37,176 nucleotides of DNA from a virus. Below are positions 18,094 to 35,573 of the stretch, piece after piece. The position numbers and the translations under genes are program-made. The stretch covers positions 1 to 37,176 of IMG/VR virus record IMGVR_UViG_3300023181_000378. One strand, written 5' to 3'. Each line of letters starts with the position of its first letter. Position 1 is the stretch's first letter. The notes beneath the pieces were generated by a model. It did no database searches. It was not told the DNA's origin and was given only the letters and a program-made list of their open reading frames with translations.

Positions 18094-21000
18094 TTATGAT
18101 ATCCAAATTGAATTTTCAGTTCCAGTATTCACCGTTGGAATAACTAAAATATTATCAGCATATATAGCAGGTGCAGACAGAACAGCATTAGCCCTAATTG
18201 TATTTCCTGCTGTAATATTTACAGTAGCTGTTATACTATTACCTACATACATGAATCCACCCGCATCTAAACTTAAATCAATACCTGAGAATGTACCGCC
18301 ATTAGATGAACCTCTACCTATGATAAAACTGTTGGAAGTAGAGATTCCCATACCCCAACCTATTTGACCCGCTCTAGTCATACCGTAATATGCATAGTTT
18401 CCTTGTGTACCGCGTGTTACACTTATTGCTCCATACGGGTCTGATACAGCACCATCATTAGCAACTTCAATTCTATAGTTATTTAGATATTTACCTTCAG
18501 CAGTAAATCTATGTAGCGGTGCATTACGATTACCAAAATGGAAACCAATTGAATCAATACCCCCTTGGAAATATCCTATACCATGTTCTGGTGCAGACTC
18601 TAGTCTCCAAATATTATTGTGTCCTGCGTTATAGTTGATATTTGAAAATCCACCTTCACTACCTTGTGCTGATGTCATCCGACCATATGATTGAATGTAA
18701 TTGGCGGCGAAATTCTCATATGTATTCCCTGGGTTATTTCTAACTACAATTCTACCTGATTGTTCTATTCCAATTGTTGATGCTACTACACCTTCCCAAT
18801 GCATACCTAGTACAGGCGAAGCAGTAGATAGTAATTCTAGTGTACCGTTATCGAACCCTGTTCCACCGTTTGTATTTCTAAACTGTTGATGTCTGTTCAT
18901 TCCATCAGTAACTACACCATACCATTGATTCCATGTTGAGTCAATCCCCTTACGTATATTCAACATGGGTATACCACCATTGTTAGCGGCTGTTGAACCA
19001 AATGCGAGCTGATAAGAAGCGTCACCTGTACTTGCGGTTGTTCCGTTCCAAGGTGCAACGGTCATAACCCCTGCATAATTACCACCTGTTGAAGTGGATG
19101 CAGAACCAACGAAATCAAGTCTTAATACATTTGGATTATCTTGTGGTAAAATACTTGCGGCATTCCTATTTGGTAAATCTATACTTCGAAGTGTATTCGA
19201 TATACGCGCGTAATCAGCCCCTCCAGTAACGGAATTATTAAGTGCTGAACCATTATTGATTCCAAGAAAACCATTGATTGTAGCGGCTGATGATGGCCTC
19301 CATTCATTGGTATCTGTTGAATACCCTAAAAGAAATATAGGTGTAGTCCCTCTTTCAGCCCCACTATAAGAAGTACCATTCCATTTCTTAGCATTGTCAA
19401 CTCCAACACCATATGATGAAACTCCATTCCATGCCATTAAAACGGGATGTGATACACCTGCTTGACCAAATGCTACTTCAGGATTAGTACTTGATAATGC
19501 TCTACCTGTTGGAGATACGCCTTGTGATGCATCAAAAATAACATGGTCAGTTCCATAGTTAGCCCACCTTAAATATTTACTTACTTGCAAATCTGCTGAA
19601 GCATTATTAATTGATGTGATAACCTCGTTACCTTGTATTTGATTTCGATATGCAAACGAACCTAAACCGATAAACCTCTGTACACTACCTGCATTCAATG
19701 CCCTGATGTAACCGTCATCATCATAACCGCCAAAGATTCTATCAACCCTATAAGAGTCTTCTACAGTTGCTTGCGTATTAAAATAACTTGCGAAAATTTG
19801 ACTAGATGCATTACGTTGCACTAATGTATTAGCACTTGTTACCTGAGAAAATGGATTCTCATATTCATTTAAAACACGGTAATTATTTACACCACGTTTC
19901 ATGTAATAACTTCCCTTAACAATCCAGTTTCCTTCACGGGAATCAAACGCACCTGTAACACTTCCATCATAGGTTTCTATTTGGTAACCCCAATGGAAGT
20001 GTTGTCTTATATTAGAAGGTTGTGTAAAGTCATTACCACTATTATCAGCGGCCATACCATAGCTATAATTGTTGGAATTTAAGTAGAACGTATTATTATT
20101 CATAGATAATCCACCCGTTAGATTTCCACCTGATAACGGTAAATAACCCGACAAGTCAGATACAATATTTTGATTAACCCATCTTGCACCATTCCAAATT
20201 AATGCTTGTCCAACGTTGGGAGCTGATAATAATACATCAGCCAATGTTGCTAGTGAACCTCCACCTGCTCCAGGATTAGGTATACCTCCACCACTAACAG
20301 CATCAGCTAACCACATAGAACCATCTTGCATAGATTCAGGGTTATACAATGGAATATATAATTGTCCACCCCTTACATCTGCAATACCGTTGTTTTTCCA
20401 AATAGCACCTAAGCTACCATCAACCCTAATCTTTGCTCCATCTAATCCAGTGTTACTATTGTTAAATGTAAAGCCACCAATTGAACCTGATGTTGCATTT
20501 ACCACCCCTGAAATGTTTGCATTTGTGAATGTTGCATTACCTTGTGCATCAATGTTAAAATTAGGGGCACTGATACCGTTAGCTTGATTGATTGTGATTC
20601 CTCCAATGTTACCACTTGTGGCATTAATGTTACCAGTTAAGTCAACATCTGAAGCAAACAATCTACCTTCACTGGTTAATGAAGTGCGTGCTGTACCGTT
20701 AGCATTTGTTTGGATACTTTTTATTGCACCCTGTGTAAACACCCATCCATATTGACCATCACCAATGTAGATGTTTTTTGATTGAAGGTTAGCTAAATAT
20801 GCATCGTTGGCAAGTAATAGATTAGTAGCAATGTTGGTATAGCTTTCCATTGCAGTCCAATATGACGTATCTGTTACTGGTGTTCCTGCGGGGATTGTTC
20901 CAGTACCAAATCTTGATTTATAAAAGGTAGCACCAAATTGAACTACTGTTATCCTATCATCATACATTGGATAAGCTATAGCACCTGAATACAAACCTTT

Positions 21001-22299
21001 GTAATCCATGAATGATGGTTTCCCAGTTGCACCATCGGCACCTGTTCTACCACGTGTTAAACTGAATTTATAGTCAGCAGGGTTATTACTATCATTAATA
21101 TTTTGGTCGGCATATACACCCATGTAATCACCTACATCTTCTCCATTATTTGAAGTAAAATTGAATCCATCGTTGGAATATTTTATGTGTAAATAAGACG
21201 GTTTTCCATCAACTCCAATACCTGCTATACCTTGTTCACCTTTAGCACCCTGAGAACCTTTAAGTTGTACCCATGTATAGGCTGTGTAAGTATTAGGTGC
21301 AGTTGGAGAATCAGTTACAGCAGTACCGATATAAATATCTGGTGTATCAGACATAGGATTTCCATTAGCATTTGGAGAATACTTTACATGAAAAAAGTTT
21401 GAAGTACCATTGATACCGTTGCTACCTACAGCACCCTGAGAACCTTTAATCAACTTCCATTTATATAATGCAGGGTTGTTTGAATCAGCTTCTATTTCAT
21501 CAACTAGAGTACCAAACCAATCACCTACTACTTCACCGTTATTAGCAGTAAAAGTAATCCCACCATTATCGGAATATTTAATATGAATGAAATTTGATTT
21601 ACCATCTTCACCTTTAACAGGTATACCATCTAATCCAGTTTGTCTATTCCAATTATACATTCGATAATCAGAACTATCTTCTTCAATTCTATCAGTGTAT
21701 GTACCAATAAATGTACCTGCTGTTTGATTGAAATTAAAACTACCATCTTCACTATCTGCATACGCCAAATGGATGAAGGAACCGTTCAATCCATCAATTC
21801 CTTTTTCCCCTTGCAATCCAGGTATACCTACACCGTCCTGTCCATTCTGTCCATCTTGCCCGTTATTACCAACAACCTTAATCCATTGGTATTCAGAATA
21901 TTCTAATGATGGTTCAGGTGTTAATTTGTTATATGCATAGCCTACGTATTTTTTACCTAACGGACTTTTAGAAATACCCGTATTTGGACTATCAGCATAC
22001 ATAACCCAATTATACATGGTTACACCGTCTTCACCTCTAACTGGAATTATTTGAAATCCTGAACCCTGAGTATAGACGTATACAAAATCATCAACTACAA
22101 TCCAATTAATTACAGTTATTGCACCTGCTGTTTTATCTAAATTGATACCGCCTTTATAACCTGCATTGAACGGTAAGTTGATACTATGTCCACCAACTTC
22201 ATCCTGTTCCACTATTAAGATTCCCGTTCTACCTGCTTCATGATTTGCGGCAATAAAAACTTCATCCTGTTTTAATAATATTTTTCTTACTATCTCCAT
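18094..22299 (-). CDS. Large tail fibre/host-specificity protein with collagen-like and repeated modules, 1401 aa
   Basis: The N-terminal half alternates short collagen-like Gly-X-Y tracts (GQDGQNGQDGVGIPGLQG) with at least four copies of a ~60-residue beta module of the form [hydrophobic]-H-h-K/A-Y-[SA]-x-D/N-G...F...G...G-x-[YF]...Y.W. A short chitin-binding-like motif follows (VVQFGATFYKSRFGTG... SYW). A repeated NATSGNIGG / NATSGSIGG fibre region and a long beta-rich C-terminal part come next. No Ser/Lys chaperone (S74) was seen at the end. Collagen-like tracts trimerise many phage fibres. It probably decides host range. The single module at 30777-31373 is related. No CAATAC element precedes it. 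Confidence 0.82.
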   Translation of the reverse strand: MEIVRKILLKQDEVFIAANHEAGRTGILIVEQDEVGGHSINLPFNAGYKGGINLDKTAGAITVINWIVVDDFVYVYTQGSGFQIIPVRGEDGVTMYNWVMYADSPNTGISKSPLGKKYVGYAYNKLTPEPSLEYSEYQWIKVVGNNGQDGQNGQDGVGIPGLQGEKGIDGLNGSFIHLAYADSEDGSFNFNQTAGTFIGTYTDRIEEDSSDYRMYNWNRQTGLDGIPVKGEDGKSNFIHIKYSDNGGITFTANNGEVVGDWFGTLVDEIEADSNNPALYKWKLIKGSQGAVGSNGINGTSNFFHVKYSPNANGNPMSDTPDIYIGTAVTDSPTAPNTYTAYTWVQLKGSQGAKGEQGIAGIGVDGKPSYLHIKYSNDGFNFTSNNGEDVGDYMGVYADQNINDSNNPADYKFSLTRGRTGADGATGKPSFMDYKGLYSGAIAYPMYDDRITVVQFGATFYKSRFGTGTIPAGTPVTDTSYWTAMESYTNIATNLLLANDAYLANLQSKNIYIGDGQYGWVFTQGAIKSIQTNANGTARTSLTSEGRLFASDVDLTGNINATSGNIGGITINQANGISAPNFNIDAQGNATFTNANISGVVNATSGSIGGFTFNNSNTGLDGAKIRVDGSLGAIWKNNGIADVRGGQLYIPLYNPESMQDGSMWLADAVSGGGIPNPGAGGGSLATLADVLLSAPNVGQALIWNGARWVNQNIVSDLSGYLPLSGGNLTGGLSMNNNTFYLNSNNYSYGMAADNSGNDFTQPSNIRQHFHWGYQIETYDGSVTGAFDSREGNWIVKGSYYMKRGVNNYRVLNEYENPFSQVTSANTLVQRNASSQIFASYFNTQATVEDSYRVDRIFGGYDDDGYIRALNAGSVQRFIGLGSFAYRNQIQGNEVITSINNASADLQVSKYLRWANYGTDHVIFDASQGVSPTGRALSSTNPEVAFGQAGVSHPVLMAWNGVSSYGVGVDNAKKWNGTSYSGAERGTTPIFLLGYSTDTNEWRPSSAATINGFLGINNGSALNNSVTGGADYARISNTLRSIDLPNRNAASILPQDNPNVLRLDFVGSASTSTGGNYAGVMTVAPWNGTTASTGDASYQLAFGSTAANNGGIPMLNIRKGIDSTWNQWYGVVTDGMNRHQQFRNTNGGTGFDNGTLELLSTASPVLGMHWEGVVASTIGIEQSGRIVVRNNPGNTYENFAANYIQSYGRMTSAQGSEGGFSNINYNAGHNNIWRLESAPEHGIGYFQGGIDSIGFHFGNRNAPLHRFTAEGKYLNNYRIEVANDGAVSDPYGAISVTRGTQGNYAYYGMTRAGQIGWGMGISTSNSFIIGRGSSNGGTFSGIDLSLDAGGFMYVGNSITATVNITAGNTIRANAVLSAPAIYADNILVIPTVNTGTENSIWIS

Positions 22300-25263: not shown

Positions 25264-26454
25264 CTAAACTGCACTTAAACCTTTCCAACTTCTACCAACA
25301 TTAATATATTCATTGTACCCATGCCACGCTAAAGCACATGCTGTCACGCGGTCGTCATTGAAGCCCGCTTGATTTCCAAATTTTGTGTGACCTGTTTCAC
25401 TATACTTCATTTCATATACAAACATTTCGTCAGCCACTTCTTGTGTATATTTAACAGCACCTGATTCAACTGCTTGAATGAACTTATATATCAGATATGG
25501 TTTACTCTTACCATTGAAACCATATGGCAATACATAGTGTCCTTTATTCTTTAATGGCTCACTTACTGCTACACCGCTACCTGAACTATCAATTACCTTT
25601 AATGTACCCTTAGATAGTTTGTTTAATTCTTCTACCTGTAGCGTATAATCATCTTTAATCTTCCATGTTGTGAAGTGTGACATCACTGCTTGTTTATTTA
25701 ATCCAACAGCTACCGTGTAATCGTTTATGCCATTGGAAATATCTATACCAAACACACAAGATTTTTCATTGGAAATAGGTACAATGTTCTTTATGATATC
25801 CTCATACTTAAATGGATTAGAAGCATTCGCTGTAAACTCTGCTAAGAATTCCTGTCTGAATAATATATCAGGCATATCCAATCTAGATTCTTCAATCTTC
25901 TCTACTGGATAATGTGGATTATCATAAGTAGTAAAATGGAATGCAGATGTTGATTGTAGCTTACCATCTTTTGCATCGTTATATAATTGCGTGAAAAAAT
26001 TAGCACCCTTAGGTGTACCGATAAACCAACATCCACCTAGTAACAAAGGACGTATTACACCGTTCCAAACATAGCTTAAATTGACTATATCCCCTGCTTC
26101 ATCAATGATTGCAAAATCATATTCACGTCCTCTAATTTTCTCTACTGCGTTACCTGAAAAGAATTTGATTGAACCACCATTTAATAACCTGATTGTTAAC
26201 TCTGATTTATTTGGTTCTCCATCCATTAATGACTTATCAAACTTCTCACTAAATTCAGTGAAGAATGTTTTAGCTAAATCATATTCAGGTGTTAGATACA
26301 TGCATCGTTTACCACGTAACATAGCATCCATTAATTTCATCATTGAAACTAATGTCTTACCAAATCTTCTACCTGCTACAATGATTTTATACTTACTCTT
26401 ATTCTTAATTATCTCTAACTGTTTAGCGTGTGGTGTATCGAATTTTGCAATCAT
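25264..26454 (-). CDS. terL: Terminase large subunit, 396 aa
   Basis: The DNA-packaging motor ATPase and nuclease. Walker A is GRRFGKT (residues 28-34) and Walker B is FAIIDEAG (Asp118, Glu119). The coupling motif is FIGTPKG (about 144-150). The C-terminal nuclease has acidic clusters in FGIDISNGINDYTV, VIDSSGSG and NDDRVTACALAWHG. Length is at the short end of the family (about 400-450), yet all core motifs are present. The start overlaps the small subunit stop by one base (TAATG). Downstream comes the frameshifted gene rather than portal. Confidence 0.93.
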   Translation of the reverse strand: MIAKFDTPHAKQLEIIKNKSKYKIIVAGRRFGKTLVSMMKLMDAMLRGKRCMYLTPEYDLAKTFFTEFSEKFDKSLMDGEPNKSELTIRLLNGGSIKFFSGNAVEKIRGREYDFAIIDEAGDIVNLSYVWNGVIRPLLLGGCWFIGTPKGANFFTQLYNDAKDGKLQSTSAFHFTTYDNPHYPVEKIEESRLDMPDILFRQEFLAEFTANASNPFKYEDIIKNIVPISNEKSCVFGIDISNGINDYTVAVGLNKQAVMSHFTTWKIKDDYTLQVEELNKLSKGTLKVIDSSGSGVAVSEPLKNKGHYVLPYGFNGKSKPYLIYKFIQAVESGAVKYTQEVADEMFVYEMKYSETGHTKFGNQAGFNDDRVTACALAWHGYNEYINVGRSWKGLSAV

Positions 26455-26780
26455 TATACATCCTCACTTTCCACATCTTCTACATCATCATTATCAAACA
26501 ATGGATTGTTATACTCGAATGTTATTTTAACGTTCCCTGTACTCTCATTCTCGTTTTTATTTGCAGATAACTTAGGTTTCACATAATTCATTAAGTCAGT
26601 GTATAATTGCAATCTACGTTGTGGTGTTACCTTATCGATATCAGCCATTAATGTTGACTCTAGTTTATTCATAACTACTGCTAATGCATCCTGAATTACC
26701 TTAGTATTTTTATTGATTGCACCCTTTGGTCTACCTGTTGGATTTAATACCTCTCCTTTTTTGATTAATTTCTTAGCCAT
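26454..26780 (-). CDS. terS: Terminase small subunit, 108 aa
   Basis: Small, helical and basic at the N-terminus (KKGEVLNPTGRPKGAINKNT), with a GRPKG segment often seen in phage DNA-binding small terminases. A central helical pair follows (DALAVVMNKLESTL, RRLQLYTDLMNYVKPKL), then an acidic tail (NDDVEDVESEDV) that may contact the large subunit. It is the first gene of the late operon, immediately upstream of and overlapping the large subunit. The role is assigned mainly by position, size and this pattern. Confidence 0.75.
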   Translation of the reverse strand: MAKKLIKKGEVLNPTGRPKGAINKNTKVIQDALAVVMNKLESTLMADIDKVTPQRRLQLYTDLMNYVKPKLSANKNENESTGNVKITFEYNNPLFDNDDVEDVESEDV

Positions 26781-28201: not shown

Positions 28202-28561
28202 TTATATTACCTCATTTAATTCAGCGGCATACCCTAAATCAACAAATTTATTTAAGGCGATTTGATACACATCATCCAAATCACTTAACGTTGTACTAAA
28301 GGACATCCAAATATTAATAGGGAATGCATTAGCTTCACCTAACGAACTTTTAACTTGAAATGGTTGTTCTCCATTGTCTTTATCAGTTAGGCTTTTATAC
28401 AGGACATAATTGATTGAAACAGTACTTGTCTGTTTAACTTCATCTTGTGTTAAGTCGATGTTGTTATTCACCTGATAGTTGGTAATCTTTAAAATAGCTT
28501 CATCAGTTTCAAAACCTGATACAGACTTTAGCGTCTGATTAAATAAAATATAATTAGTCAT
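28202..28561 (-). CDS. Hypothetical protein, 119 aa
   Basis: A strand-rich N-terminal half (SVSGFETDEAILKITNYQV) and a mid segment with paired strands (STVSINYVLYKSL) precede a short helix. No signal peptide, membrane helix or known catalytic motif was seen. The start overlaps the upstream gene's stop by 8 nt, so translation is likely coupled. Not recognised. Confidence 0.6.
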   Translation of the reverse strand: MTNYILFNQTLKSVSGFETDEAILKITNYQVNNNIDLTQDEVKQTSTVSINYVLYKSLTDKDNGEQPFQVKSSLGEANAFPINIWMSFSTTLSDLDDVYQIALNKFVDLGYAAELNEVI

Positions 28562-28712
28562 TTGTTTTTTCTCCTTCTTTTGGTAATAGTTGCGCTAACA
28601 CTTGGATAGCTTTATCCAACACTTGTGCATCGTTTCTTTTAAGTTGTAAATCACCTGTTGCGGTGAATATAATTTGCAGTGCTTGTTCTGCTGTCATTTC
28701 TTTATTTTCCAT
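28554..28712 (-). CDS. Small helical phage protein, 52 aa
   Basis: Begins MENKEMTAEQALQII. This short helical type, with MENKxMTAEQALQ and a later LxxxDAQVLDKAIQVL helix, is common in early regions of phages. No function is established to my knowledge. I chose the ATG at 28712 over one at 28736 because the longer form overlaps the end of the sigma-like gene. It overlaps the next gene (ATGACTAA). Confidence 0.65.
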   Translation of the reverse strand: MENKEMTAEQALQIIFTATGDLQLKRNDAQVLDKAIQVLAQLLPKEGEKTND

Positions 28713-28719
28713 AATTATT

Positions 28720-29457
28720 TTATTCTTCTTCGTCATCAGACTCTGATGCCTGATGTGTATTTCTTTTTGTTTTCTTTATTGTAATAGGGTTAAGTATTTC
28801 ATCAATTTCCTTGTCTGATTTATACTCACTCGCTTTTCTTATATGTTTATATTCATCTGTAAATTCGTTAACCAATTCAGCTAACTTTATTTTCATTGCT
28901 TCAACTTTAATCTTCACATCTGCTTTGTAACGGCCTTTAGTTTTTTTCTTGTCAATTAGCAGGTTCAAAGTATTTACTTCATCAGTTGTAAGCTTAGGTA
29001 GTATGTAGTTGAATAATTCATTCTCACTATATTCATCATCTGGTTTATCCCTTGGAATGAAATTAAAGTCCTCACCTATATCATCTACAAACATTTCTGT
29101 TGGACTTATTGATGCATTGGAAGATAAACTGCTAGCATGTCTAAGCCTTCCAAGTAGTGAACCGTTAGGGTTGTTAGTACTTCTTCTTACACATACGTTA
29201 GTAAACATCATAAACACATACCCCTCAAAATCACCTTTACCTTCTTCAACGTATAATGCTTCAATTTTTCACGGTGGTATCCTAGATAGTTCCATAAAGG
29301 TTTCTTGTATGCAATCGTCTAATACTTGTGTGCCTCGGGGTATACCACACCTAAAAACAAGCTTATCAAATTTCTTCCAAAGTTGTTTACTGTTATAGTA
29401 TTTAAGAATGATTTCGTCTCTAGACAGTCATACCTTTTCTGTTTTCTTTCTACCCAT
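28720..29457 (-). CDS. Sigma-70-like factor read through two in-frame TGA codons (or nonsense-broken), 245 codons
   Basis: One continuous frame runs from ATG at 29457 to TAA at 28720, except for TGA at codons 10 (29428-29430) and 63 (29269-29271). The frame before, between and after the stops is coding-like and reads as one protein. A sigma region-2-like part (LWKKFDKLVFRCGIPR... LDDCIQETFMELSR, GYVFMMFTNVCVRRS) is followed by an acidic linker and a region-4-like helical end (LTTDEVNTLNLLI). The start lies 1 nt after the preceding stop, so the whole frame fills its slot in the operon. The first TGA is followed by CTG, a leaky context. Readthrough or recoding, versus a broken gene, is undecided. 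The sigma assignment is moderate. Confidence 0.55.
29269..29271 (-). other. In-frame TGA, codon 63 of the sigma-like gene
   Basis: CCG TGA AAA within the phrase RIPP-TGA-KIEALYVEEG. Coding-like residues continue on both sides. Confidence 0.75.
29428..29430 (-). other. In-frame TGA, codon 10 of the sigma-like gene
   Basis: GTA TGA CTG within MGRKKTEKV-TGA-LSRDEIIL. The downstream C matches the weakest context for UGA termination. Confidence 0.75.
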
Positions 29458-29458
29458 A

Positions 29459-29923
29459 TTATTTTACCTCTTTTGTATTCTTTAAAAACCAGTAGCTGAA
29501 ATCAACCAATGCCATTGTGGTATTGTTACCATCTCCACCGCGTACCGTTCTTAGCACTTTATTATCTTCCAATTCTTTGATACCTTCTTTTAGTTTTTCA
29601 GTTGGAATACTGTAGAACTTATCAAGTATTTTATAAACCGTGTAATCTGCTGTAGTTGCTGATAATCCACTGTCTTGCTTCATTCCTTCCCTATCGTAAC
29701 GGAACAACTCAATTGCCACGTTCGTAGTCTTAACCATAGCGATTAGGTCATTTTTTAATTCAAATGTGTACGTGACATCTTTCTTTGTTGCAGTGACATC
29801 ATATCCTGAAAACTTTCCTAGCTCTGCTGTAGTGGTAGCAACCCATCCTTTATTATTTAAGAGGGTACAAAACTCCTTTTCTACTTCTTGTGCTTTTTGT
29901 AAATCGTTATTGAATGTTGACAT
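29459..29923 (-). CDS. Putative PD-(D/E)XK nuclease-like protein, 154 aa
   Basis: Begins MSTFNNDLQKAQEVEKEF. The core GYDVTATKKDVTYTFELKND carries Asp, a strand turn and E-x-K (D-x(n)-ExK), the signature of PD-(D/E)XK nucleases. It is followed by TTNVAIELFRY and SATTADYTVYK, a pattern shared by a phage nuclease-like family. The C-terminal half (GIKELEDNKVLRTVRGGDGNNT) may be a substrate domain. An upstream alternative start at 29962 was rejected because it overlaps the previous gene deeply. The fold is likely and activity unproven. It may act in recombination, DNA degradation or end processing. Confidence 0.6.
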   Translation of the reverse strand: MSTFNNDLQKAQEVEKEFCTLLNNKGWVATTTAELGKFSGYDVTATKKDVTYTFELKNDLIAMVKTTNVAIELFRYDREGMKQDSGLSATTADYTVYKILDKFYSIPTEKLKEGIKELEDNKVLRTVRGGDGNNTTMALVDFSYWFLKNTKEVK

Positions 29924-30257
29924 TAGTGACTGCTTCAGGCTTGGTATTAGTGCCGTTGGCAATCGGAAATTGTACTACTTGTGTTTGAATTACCGCTAGA
30001 CTTTTATAATGGTCTTCATCAAAATAAACTGCAACACTTTCTGTGTTATCAGCATACACAATGTCTAATACATTTTGTACTCTTTTACTTGTTGATAATA
30101 CAATTGCTTCAATATCTGATTCAGTAATGCTGATGTAGTGTGGTGCAGGAATGATTGCATTCTCTGTTCTGAAAAATACTAATCCAACAAATGGTAATAA
30201 CTGTTCTCTTAATTTAGCTTGTGCTTCTTGTAATCTTAAATTCTGTTCTTTATTCAT
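29907..30257 (-). CDS. Hypothetical protein, 116 aa
   Basis: A helical N-terminus (LQEAQAKLREQLLPF) is followed by a beta-alpha-beta body (ITESDIEAIVLSTSKRVQNV, VAVYFDEDHYKSLAVIQTQ). No known motif was seen. Its leader contains AGACTATTTAT and ATGAATAAA, the same elements found before the gene at 32017, suggesting shared control of expression. It overlaps the nuclease-like gene by 17 nt. Confidence 0.6.
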   Translation of the reverse strand: MNKEQNLRLQEAQAKLREQLLPFVGLVFFRTENAIIPAPHYISITESDIEAIVLSTSKRVQNVLDIVYADNTESVAVYFDEDHYKSLAVIQTQVVQFPIANGTNTKPEAVTNVNIQ

Positions 30258-30366: not shown

Positions 30367-30684
30367 ATGATGACTAAAAATAAATACAACGCAAAAAAAA
30401 CTATATATAAAGGGATTACTTACGACTCTAAAAAAGAAGCTATGCGTGCTGAAGAATTGGATGTAATGTTATCCATTGGAAAGATACTAGATATCCAAAG
30501 ACAAGTACCATTGAAGTGTATTGTAAACAATCTACTTGTTTGCAAACTTGTATGTGATTTCGTTTATACTTTACCTTCAGGGGAAGTTATTCATGAAGAT
30601 GTTAAGGGTATGGTTTTGCCTGTGTTTAAACTGAAACAAAAACTAGTAAAGGCTCTACTTGGGATAGAGGTAATAATCTTTTAA
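30367..30684 (+). CDS. DUF1064-like protein (PD-(D/E)XK superfamily), 105 aa
   Basis: Typical DUF1064 features are NKYNAKKT at the start, YDSKKEAMRAEELDVML, VPLK, VCDFVYTLPSGEVIHEDVKG and a C-terminal KLKQKLVKALLG. The Asp in CDFVY and the E-D-V-K segment are the expected nuclease-fold residues. Family members occur in phages as small nucleases or Holliday-junction-resolvase-like proteins. It is on the plus strand inside a minus-strand operon, so separately expressed. The C-terminal end is only slightly shorter than typical, so I regard it as intact. Confidence 0.72.
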   Translation: MMTKNKYNAKKTIYKGITYDSKKEAMRAEELDVMLSIGKILDIQRQVPLKCIVNNLLVCKLVCDFVYTLPSGEVIHEDVKGMVLPVFKLKQKLVKALLGIEVIIF

Positions 30685-30776: not shown

Positions 30777-31373
30777 TTATTTATCTTCAGTATTCCGAAG
30801 TTTACGTTTAAGCTCAAATAATTCACCAATCAACTTATCAGATTCATTTTCCAACCTATCCATTTCACGGTTATAATCTATATCATCAGGTAGCTGATTT
30901 AGTTTCACTCTATGGTTGCATACGGCTTTATTGGCTTTGCTAAATTCTGCTTCAGCTTCTCTGATTTGTTGCCTGATGCTCTTTACAGGCTCTTGTACAA
31001 CCTCAGTCCATTTATATGTATCTGGATGTGGACATGATTTAACTGATGTTCCTGTATAAACCCCTATGTACTTACCAGATTCCCTATTGAAGTTAATTGT
31101 ACCATCGGCACTATCAGCATAAGCAATATGTAGATAAGATTGTTTCTTTTCCAACTCCGCTACCTGCTTAGTCAATAAATCCATTGATTCCAATCGTTGT
31201 GCTGATGTTGCTTCTGCTTCTGTGATTTCTTCTTCTAATTGTTTGAATAAGTCTGTAACACGATTACTATTTTCTATAATTCTATTTGCTTCTAAAAGTG
31301 TATATGTACCTTCATTTCTTAAAAAGTTTAAATCCCTGATTTCTTCTTGTATTTCTTTTAATTTATTTTTCAT
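30777..31373 (-). CDS. Coiled-coil protein carrying a tail-fibre-type module, 198 aa
   Basis: Two long charged helical regions flank a beta module (residues about 78-112, SYLHIAYADSADGTINF... SGKYIGVYTG... YKWTEVV). The module is closely related to the repeats in the large fibre at 18094-22299 (for example SFIHLAYADSEDGSFNFNQT). The flanks are heptad-like (EEIRDLNFLRNEGTYTLLEANRI and LNQLPDDIDYNREMDRL). It is in the early operon, not the tail region, so a transferred or duplicated module is likely. Possible roles include a fibre-assembly chaperone, a decoy or an accessory fibre. Function unknown. Confidence 0.65.
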   Translation of the reverse strand: MKNKLKEIQEEIRDLNFLRNEGTYTLLEANRIIENSNRVTDLFKQLEEEITEAEATSAQRLESMDLLTKQVAELEKKQSYLHIAYADSADGTINFNRESGKYIGVYTGTSVKSCPHPDTYKWTEVVQEPVKSIRQQIREAEAEFSKANKAVCNHRVKLNQLPDDIDYNREMDRLENESDKLIGELFELKRKLRNTEDK

Positions 31374-31747: not shown

Positions 31748-32011
31748 TTATTCTCTTACTTTTTTTAATTTATTAATGTGCTTCACTACTTGTGGGCACT
31801 TCTCATATTCTTCTTTTGTTTCATAGATGTTTAACACCTTAGACATCTGCTGAAGCAGTCAAGGCTTGGTTACGAAAATTATTATATCACCATCAGGGAA
31901 AAAATATTCATAGATTAAATCTTTCTGTGATATGATTTCTTCGTTGTCCATAATGTCATCTATATAATCATCCATTATATATAGATATCGCATTGCTGTA
32001 CCTCTATTCAT
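31748..32011 (-). CDS. Hypothetical protein read through one in-frame TGA, 87 codons
   Basis: One frame runs from ATG at 32011 to TAA at 31748, broken only by TGA at codon 51 (31859-31861). Before it is an acidic segment (MDDYIDDIMDNEEIISQK... YFFPDGDIIIFVTKP). After it comes LLQQMSKVLNIYETKEEY, KCPQVVKHINKLKKVRE. The continuous reading fits its slot exactly, 5 nt after one gene and 10 nt before the next. The stop context is TGA-CTG, the same as at codon 10 of the sigma-like gene. Function unknown. Readthrough or recoding, versus nonsense mutation, is not decided. Confidence 0.55.
31859..31861 (-). other. In-frame TGA, codon 51 of the 31748-32011 gene
   Basis: CCT TGA CTG, in FVTKP-TGA-LLQQMSKVL. 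Confidence 0.75.
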
Positions 32012-33743: not shown

Positions 33744-33988
33744 TTGTTGTTTGGTTTTATTCAATCATTGCAGGTAGTAATAAATGACAACCGTTGCAAC
33801 AGTTGCCATTCCCAAACAATGAATTAAAGTATCTATATACTTTCTAATAAATATCTTCCAGAATTGGAAAGTGATGATTTATTATTAAATATTTTTATTT
33901 ACTCATATTGTTAAGATAGGGCAACATTCAAAAAAGTCAAGTGTGGAAATGATATTTATTTTTAGATATTCTATTTCTGACAGAAAAT

Positions 33989-34006
33989 AACACAAAAAGA
34001 CTCCAC
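33989..34006 (+). repeat. Repeat AACACAAAAAGACTCCAC, copy 1
   Basis: Identical over 18 bases to 34086-34103. Followed by ACGG rather than TAC. Confidence 0.85.
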
Positions 34007-34020
34007 ACGGTATACCCTAT

Positions 34021-34030
34021 TTTTACCCTA
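34021..34030 (+). repeat. TTTTACCCTA, outer left arm
   Basis: Inverted partner of TAGGGTAAAA at 34520-34529. A second ACCCTA lies at 34014-34019. Confidence 0.55.
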
Positions 34031-34085
34031 AATCAGACAATTTGGAGAAAATAAAAGTGTGGATTTTGATACTAAAAACTGGATT

Positions 34086-34106
34086 AACACAAAAAGACTC
34101 CACTAC
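34086..34106 (+). repeat. Repeat copy 2, inner left arm of a 20-bp inverted repeat
   Basis: ACACAAAAAGACTCCACTAC (34087-34106) is the exact reverse complement of 34462-34481. The leading A at 34086 extends the direct match with copy 1. Confidence 0.9.
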
Positions 34107-34461
34107 TAAAGAAGAAAATCCAAATGATTCTTTTTATCAAATAGTTTAAATGAATTAAAAACTCATTTCACTACGTTCAATTTCATTTTTAATTATAGAA
34201 TCAGTTGAAACAAAAAAAATATCTTTTGAAATTATTCTATTGAAATCCTTTTGTTAGTTGGAAACTTGAATATTTATTTTGAATTGGAATGAAGTTATTG
34301 TTACTCTTTAAAATTAGTTTATGATATCTTTCTTTCCTTTATGAATGTTGTATGGATGAATTATTCTTTATCCAATGTTATTATTCTTCTAACTGCATCA
34401 CAGATTGATTTCTACTATATCCCAACATCCGCAGGATAAACTTTGATTGATATAGTTACCC

Positions 34462-34481
34462 GTAGTGGAGTCTTTTTGTGT
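34462..34481 (-). repeat. Repeat copy 3 (inverted), inner right arm
   Basis: GTAGTGGAGTCTTTTTGTGT, a perfect 20-bp inverted match to copy 2, separated by 355 nt. Confidence 0.9.
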
Positions 34482-34519
34482 CAATTACAGTATTACAATT
34501 CTATGACAATAGGTAAAAC

Positions 34520-34529
34520 TAGGGTAAAA
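34520..34529 (-). repeat. TAGGGTAAAA, outer right arm
   Basis: Inverted partner of 34021-34030. The inner and outer pairs are nested in the same order on both sides. Confidence 0.55.
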
Positions 34530-34690
34530 TCTACCATTTCCAAGTATTGAATTTTCCTTAGTCCAACAGTATCAATAAGTTATCTTATGATATTTCTTTT
34601 AGATTTAAAAATAATTCACTAATCAGTGTAACTGTCAGTAGTCCAGGCAAATAAATAAGGTAATTACATTTTAAATTCTAACCTTTGTGT

Positions 34691-34837
34691 ATGAACACAC
34701 GACTACTTAACCTATTGAATACCGTTCTTACTGATTCTATCAGAGTATTAGAGAATGATGAAGACTATGAAACATGCGCTCTACTATTAGATAAACAGCA
34801 GGATGTACAAATAGACATCCTGCTTAATGATATATGA
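34691..34837 (+). CDS. Small Leu-rich protein, 48 aa
   Basis: A short ORF (MNTRLLNLLNTVLTDSIRVL, then ENDEDYETCALLLDKQQ) with helical, leucine-rich character and an acidic middle. It ends in TGA inside an ATGA overlap with the next gene, strong evidence for translational coupling. A TAACCTTTG sequence ends a few bases upstream of the ATG. It is the first gene of the four-gene plus-strand operon. Function unknown. Confidence 0.55.
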   Translation: MNTRLLNLLNTVLTDSIRVLENDEDYETCALLLDKQQDVQIDILLNDI

Positions 34838-34995
34838 TTACAGAGGCTCTAATGCAGTCATTATTAAAGGATACTAATACAGTACCTGACTATTTATATA
34901 TACTACTGGATATAATCATTCCCCAATTGGAAGATGAGAATCAGATAAACGAATTAAAACAATTACAAACCGAACTTAAAAAACTAAAAAAATGA
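34834..34995 (+). CDS. Small helical protein, 53 aa
   Basis: MITEALMQSLLKDTNTVPDY leads to a hydrophobic helix (LYILLDIIIPQLEDENQ) and a Lys/Leu coiled-coil end (INELKQLQTELKKLKK). It overlaps both neighbours by ATGA and ends in TGA. Function unknown; possibly a small antitoxin-like or assembly peptide, but nothing specific supports that. Confidence 0.55.
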   Translation: MITEALMQSLLKDTNTVPDYLYILLDIIIPQLEDENQINELKQLQTELKKLKK

Positions 34996-35573
34996 GAAGA
35001 ATATTTTTAACCCTCTTTGCTGTTATTAGCATCCTAACAGCATCAGCACAATTACCAGTTCCAGTTAGAGATGGAAGGATAGAGTATACAGGCGTTGTAG
35101 AGACACCAAATGTATCAGGTAAGGATTTATATAAGAATACTAAATATTACCTTACACATGCGTTTAAAGGAGCTAATGATGCTATCATCCTAGATGACTC
35201 AACTAGCAATACCATTGCATTAAAGTCTCAGGTGTTTGTTCCTATGGAAATCCAAGGTAGTACTTCACAGGGTAACATGTTTGACTATCGTGTGCAGGTG
35301 GAAGTTAAAGACGGTAAGTACAGATATACTATCAGCGGTTTTGGCGGTCACTCGGTAAATAACAATCAATATCAAGGCACTTCCAATGTTTCATTTGATG
35401 GTTCAGGTTTGGATAAGATGTTAGAAAAACTGAATGGCATAGCTGATGCTAAAATAAAAGAGATGATTATCAAATCAACCAATGGAATGCTGAATAACTT
35501 AAATGAAAAAATGACTACATTGATTGCCCAATTGAATGCAAATATAATTACCAAACCAAATACTGATTTCTAA
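34992..35573 (+). CDS. Secreted DUF4468-like (TBP-like fold) protein, 193 aa
   Basis: An N-terminal signal peptide (MRRIFLTLFAVISILTASAQ) with likely cleavage after ASA. The mature part has the DUF4468 pattern: GRIEYTGVVE, then SGKDLYKNTKYYLTHAF, a strand with IALKSQVFVPME, and FDYRVQVEVKDGKYRYTIS. Family members are exported Bacteroidota proteins of unknown function. A phage or prophage copy could alter the lysogen's surface. It is coupled to the preceding gene by ATGA and to the next by TAATG. Confidence 0.72.
   Translation: MRRIFLTLFAVISILTASAQLPVPVRDGRIEYTGVVETPNVSGKDLYKNTKYYLTHAFKGANDAIILDDSTSNTIALKSQVFVPMEIQGSTSQGNMFDYRVQVEVKDGKYRYTISGFGGHSVNNNQYQGTSNVSFDGSGLDKMLEKLNGIADAKIKEMIIKSTNGMLNNLNEKMTTLIAQLNANIITKPNTDF

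Follow-up and report, generated by a model that had tools for sequence, protein, structure and literature searches.

Two in-frame UGA codons in a terminase-proximal sigma-70-like gene of a phage: probably a recent inactivation in a single genome

Introduction

In-frame stop codons in selected bacterial genes were described in 2021 as orthologous stops common to at least two species (PMC7918605). In phages, they are known from stop-reassigned genomes such as the crAss-like phages that use code 15, where recoding is genome-wide and has been validated by metaproteomics (PMC9523058). Stop contexts of the UGAC and UGAA type have been described as terminating inefficiently or as liable to be misread (PMC5289835), and a tRNA-Trp with a 4-bp stem as a mechanism of readthrough (PMC13092985). 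Among phage genes of the sigma-70 type, ORF 33 of Nonlabens phage P12024S (AFM54694.1) is annotated as 'Sigma-70 region 2'.

Here we analyse a sigma-70-like gene carrying two in-frame TGA codons in an IMG/VR virus record of 37,176 bases and 34% G+C (the window, meaning the whole stretch of DNA analysed). The window contains terminase, portal and integrase genes, and its structural genes are intact. An earlier note on this DNA had proposed that UGA is read in the gene, as Trp or another residue, and could gate late expression, with a recently broken gene as the alternative.

Results

An interrupted gene in a conserved position

The frame lies on the minus strand at 28720–29457, running from ATG at 29457 to TAA at 28722–28720 over 245 codons plus the stop. 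It is interrupted by TGA at codon 10 (29428–29430, UGA-C context) and codon 63 (29269–29271, UGA-A context), and by no TAA or TAG. Its start codon stands 1 nt past the TAA of the upstream gene (29459–29926, minus strand). On the ends of the frame, the two TGAs, the lack of other stops and the 1-nt spacing, our translation agrees with the earlier note. For the base composition of the window, a random frame of 244 codons would lack TAA and TAG with a chance of about 4e-6. Given these odds and the end-to-end homology to an intact prophage gene, the frame is not a product of chance and is a real gene. The segment between the two TGAs (29427–29272, minus strand) has atypical synonymous codon usage, in the lowest 0.6% of same-length windows of this phage's genes, while usage is normal downstream of codon 63.

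The intact gene belongs to a prophage of the soil bacterium Pedobacter sp. L105 that is colinear with the window along the entire record. The prophage was found through its large terminase in an alignment-based scan; such scans also picked up the related phages, whereas single-protein scans for relatives of the sigma-like gene and of TerL returned no matches. The L105 homologue (L166:5836-6567, NZ_LMUP01000007.1; 45% identity, 229 aa, E 1e-65) aligns without gaps across both TGAs, bearing out the claim that the segments form one protein, and has the sense codons GTG (Val) and GAA (Glu) opposite codons 10 and 63.

The upstream gene encodes a nuclease-like protein (restriction- or Holliday-junction-nuclease-like) and stands 5' of the sigma-like gene as a conserved neighbour, also in the related loci L011, L017 and L184 and in P12024S (VRR-NUC). 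Downstream, also on the minus strand, lie a small gene at 28554–28736 (50% identity in L105), a gene at 28202–28561 (47%), the probable small terminase subunit at 26454–26780 (78%) and the large terminase subunit at 25264–26454 (74%), which serves as the synteny anchor. The interrupted gene occupies the slot that directly follows the nuclease gene and lies upstream of both terminase genes, and P12024S and many IMG/VR relatives have a sigma-70-like ORF in the same order. Homologues fill this slot in about 30 related phages and prophages. Elsewhere in the phage group the gene is universal and its reading frame uninterrupted: no internal stop was found in the conserved body of the homologues from Sphingobacteriales genomes and IMG/VR phages, and no relative has TGA at codon 10 or 63. 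The window holds no second sigma-like copy, the interrupted frame being the only window frame that matches the family profile.

Inside the leftward operon, a DUF1064 gene lies on the opposite strand (30367–30684, plus strand). A coiled-coil protein is encoded at 30777–31373 (minus strand), with a segment, YLHIAYADSADGTINFN, that resembles repeats of the large tail protein at 18094–22299 (minus strand). The stretch from 33765 to 34690, about 0.9 kb, has no coding-looking ORF of at least 60 aa; a 19-nt direct repeat occurs there at 33988 and 34085, with an inverted copy at 34462–34491 (consensus TAACACAAAAAGACTCCAC), making the region a possible operator or origin. In the L105 prophage, in the region compared (contig positions 346980–347647), two repressor-like HTH genes on the minus strand stand between the homologues of 34691–34837 and 34992–35573. 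Both are absent from window positions 34690–35000, where the flanking genes are joined by ATGA overlaps.

Identity of the encoded protein

Searches of Pfam returned no sigma match for the window protein. Its group members fare better: L015 matches Sigma70_r4_2 with an E value of 1.2e-4, which falls below the curated cut-off, P12024S matches Sigma70_r2 above the cut-off, and several members match the sigma family PHROG_1740. Against the profile of this group the window frame scored E 0.001, the best of all window frames, and a profile-profile comparison (hhalign) of window and group gave E 4e-5 with a probability of 70%. A second hhalign result was set aside as inflated, since the window protein was present in both alignments.

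A first AlphaFold model showed no sigma match, while the model from a better alignment did. With TGA read as W, the model has confident helical domains at residues 1–80 and 135–190 joined by a disordered linker; the sigma2-like domain corresponds to codons 11–90 and the region-4-like part to codons 145–205. The three best PDB matches of the model are all sigma factors, none significant alone, the best of them being M. tuberculosis sigma L (6tye_F; E 0.37, prob 0.57, not significant alone). We therefore name the product, by family and position, a putative, diverged sigma-70-like factor in the order sigma2, loose linker, sigma4. Its location ahead of the packaging genes, together with this domain plan, suggests that it is probably a regulator of late transcription.

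The two stops fall differently on this plan. Codon 10 lies in an N-terminal extension, immediately ahead of the point where the conserved sigma2 begins, and codon 63 in the first turn of helix four of the sigma2-like domain. The second stop thus cuts the sigma2 domain and does not part region 2 from region 4. The earlier note had placed regions 2 and 4 on opposite sides of this stop; the region-4-like part does follow it, but the stop lies inside the first domain and not between the two.

Broken gene or readthrough

The reading that fits best, and that we consider probable, is the one that had been offered as the alternative: the sigma-like gene was recently inactivated in one genome, and its UGAs are ordinary stops. 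Ribosomes starting at the ATG would halt after 9 codons, and those starting between the two TGAs would halt within the sigma2 domain. In a standard-code host both UGAs would act as ordinary stops, with trace readthrough at best, and the product would most likely be inactive or nearly so. The inactivation would have to be recent, because the remainder of the gene still looks selected: no frameshift, TAA, TAG or rate acceleration was seen in it.

This same lack of decay is what speaks against a broken gene. For neutral decay to leave exactly two TGAs and neither a TAA, a TAG nor an indel, the probability is about 0.001–0.01 at best, a figure conditional on a finding that was picked for its oddness. 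Such decay should bring roughly 10–40 extra missense changes, and relative-rate counts (28:21, 16:14, 20:15, 9:23 and 12:19) give the window branch no excess. The presence of the gene throughout the rest of the group and the intact structural genes of the window count against a broken gene as well. The argument against a dead gene would be weakened if loss had been selected for, if the prophage were defective or if the sequence contained an error.

An in-frame TGA also occurs in a second gene, missed by the earlier note, at 31748–32011 (minus strand), where it is codon 51 (31861–31859, UGA-C context). Its L105 homologue (L166:4082-4378) is intact and has TGG (Trp) opposite this codon. An RF2-type +1 frameshift in this gene, at CCU-UGA-C, was rejected, as homology runs on in the zero frame. 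Internal stops are rare in the phage group, with 3 events among the 166 loci surveyed after antisense ORFs were filtered out, which speaks for an inactivated gene. All three internal stops of the window are TGA (contexts UGAC, UGAA and UGAC), an event of about 1% at roughly 0.2–0.25 per random nonsense mutation. This figure, conditional on the same choice of an odd finding, also counts against a broken gene.

The strongest competitor, unlikely in our assessment, is leaky readthrough, in which a near-cognate tRNA (Trp or other) would read a few percent of the UGAs and yield small amounts of full-length protein, perhaps limiting late expression. The uniform TGA identity of the three stops, followed by C, A and C, would suit this account, as would the lack of other decay or rate acceleration, the conservation of the sigma-like gene throughout the group and its lack of a second copy in the window, and the Trp codon opposite the TGA of the second gene. 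In-frame stops under purifying selection are also reported to be widespread among bacterial genes, with an enrichment in the mobilome category (PMC7918605). On the other hand, two serial UGAs multiply the loss, and residue 63 is Glu or Asp in all six close Sphingobacteriales homologues, L105 included, and never Trp; an acidic residue is not typical of UGA suppression. Together, the serial stops and the acidic ancestral residue would make productive readthrough hard. At codon 63, moreover, the change from GAA to TGA needs two substitutions. We found no stimulatory RNA stem downstream of the TGAs, no unusual folding near the three sites (z +1.0, -0.35 and -0.19), no tRNA, suppressor or other, and no Rfam element within the window, and no homologue with TGA at these sites. 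The proposed gating of late expression by readthrough is therefore unsupported, the loss being multiplied at two stops in series. Highly doubtful, too, is the broader version in which UGA would be used or tolerated in both phage genes and a trickle of sigma-like factor would tie late transcription to the termination efficiency of the host.

Specialised forms of readthrough were considered separately. Selenocysteine insertion was rejected for want of a SECIS element, an Rfam match or a tRNA in the window, the homologues having Val and Glu at the two sites. Programmed readthrough at a conserved stop was rejected since no relative has TGA at either site, and the 4-bp-stem tRNA-Trp since the anticodon stem of the L105 tRNA-Trp has, by eye, 5 pairs with a G-U on top.

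Other explanations

It is distinctly unlikely that the stops are an artefact of assembly, sequencing or population structure, that is, a contig error or a minority variant among mostly intact phages. The window derives from one uncultured record of IMG/VR, and no near-identical record against which to check the contig was found in the searched set, which may omit such records. An exact IMG/VR search for variants around codon 63 also returned none. As a pattern of errors, three independent TGAs would nevertheless be odd, since no frameshift accompanies them and no further gene is broken.

True reassignment of UGA (to Trp, Gly or another residue) in the phage or its host is largely refuted and very improbable. 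It was suggested by the scarcity of TGA stops, with none in ORFs of at least 60 aa, and by the Trp codon aligned with codon 51 of 31748–32011. This scarcity is not a sign of recoding, because TGA stops are equally scarce in the standard-code L105 prophage: of 36 pairs of homologous genes, 1 window gene and 3 L105 genes end in TGA (Fisher p 0.61). Within the window, a small gene at 34691–34837 (plus strand) terminates with TGA at the position where the L105 homologue has its TAA stop, evidence that TGA is still a working stop codon in this phage. A small ORF at 34834–34995 (plus strand), which joins the next gene by an ATGA overlap, also ends in TGA and is weaker evidence, no homologue having been found. 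Genome-wide reassignment was dropped given these TGA-ended small genes and the equal scarcity in L105.

Codon counts and the host point in the same direction. TGG is used 110 times in the counted gene set, against three in-frame TGAs in the window. A recoded code (code 4, code 25 or similar) was rejected on the TGA end of 34691–34837 and on these few TGAs, which stand opposite Val, Glu and Trp. The L105 host, taken as a stand-in for the true host, has prfB (RF2) and one ordinary tRNA-Trp(CCA), and none of its 52 tRNAs (Rfam and ARAGORN) has a UCA anticodon; these features count against reassignment. The reading of UGA as Trp is likewise unsupported, given the terminating TGA of 34691–34837, an acidic residue 63, and the lack of any suppressor tRNA, SECIS or stimulatory structure.

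Least credible of all is a split gene, in which TGA10 would lie outside the true start and a restart past TGA63 would give a separate DNA-binding (sigma4) protein. TGA10 does precede the conserved domain, an internal ATG of the L105 homologue aligns with window codon 9, and there are GTG and ATG starts around codons 81–83, but codons 10 to 55 contain no ATG, GTG or TTG, so that only CTG could start the N-terminal part, TGA63 cuts a folded sigma2 domain, and no homologue is split.

Discussion

The protein encoded by this gene would most likely help RNA polymerase to start late transcription, covering the packaging and structural genes. We infer both this role and its loss in the window phage. 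If the gene is simply broken, the case is ordinary in kind, yet it would provide a natural knock-out of a sigma-like gene, and the locus still defines a family of terminase-proximal sigma-like genes in Bacteroidota phages that automatic annotation has missed. If UGA were read, the stops would form a throttle on a late regulator in an otherwise standard-code phage, which would be a rare case.

With the stop-reassigned phages (PMC9523058) the window shares an in-frame stop in a phage gene, but its TGA is found inside genes at three codons only and terminates elsewhere, in contrast to their genome-wide recoding. The selected bacterial genes with in-frame stops (PMC7918605) are likewise conserved genes with no other decay, but their stops recur between species, whereas those described here occur in one record alone.

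As to the protein, the modelled sigma2-linker-sigma4 plan, with two helical domains and a disordered linker, would be that of the ECF-type sigma-70 factors, although the window sequence lies below Pfam detection. ORF 33 of P12024S follows VRR-NUC in the same slot and is separated from the large terminase by a few small genes, but it is highly diverged in sequence, intact and 159 aa long. The closest counterpart is the L105 gene, which keeps the same gene order along the whole prophage and likewise adjoins the stop of the nuclease gene; unlike the window gene, it is uninterrupted, has sense codons at both sites and ends in TGA instead of TAA.
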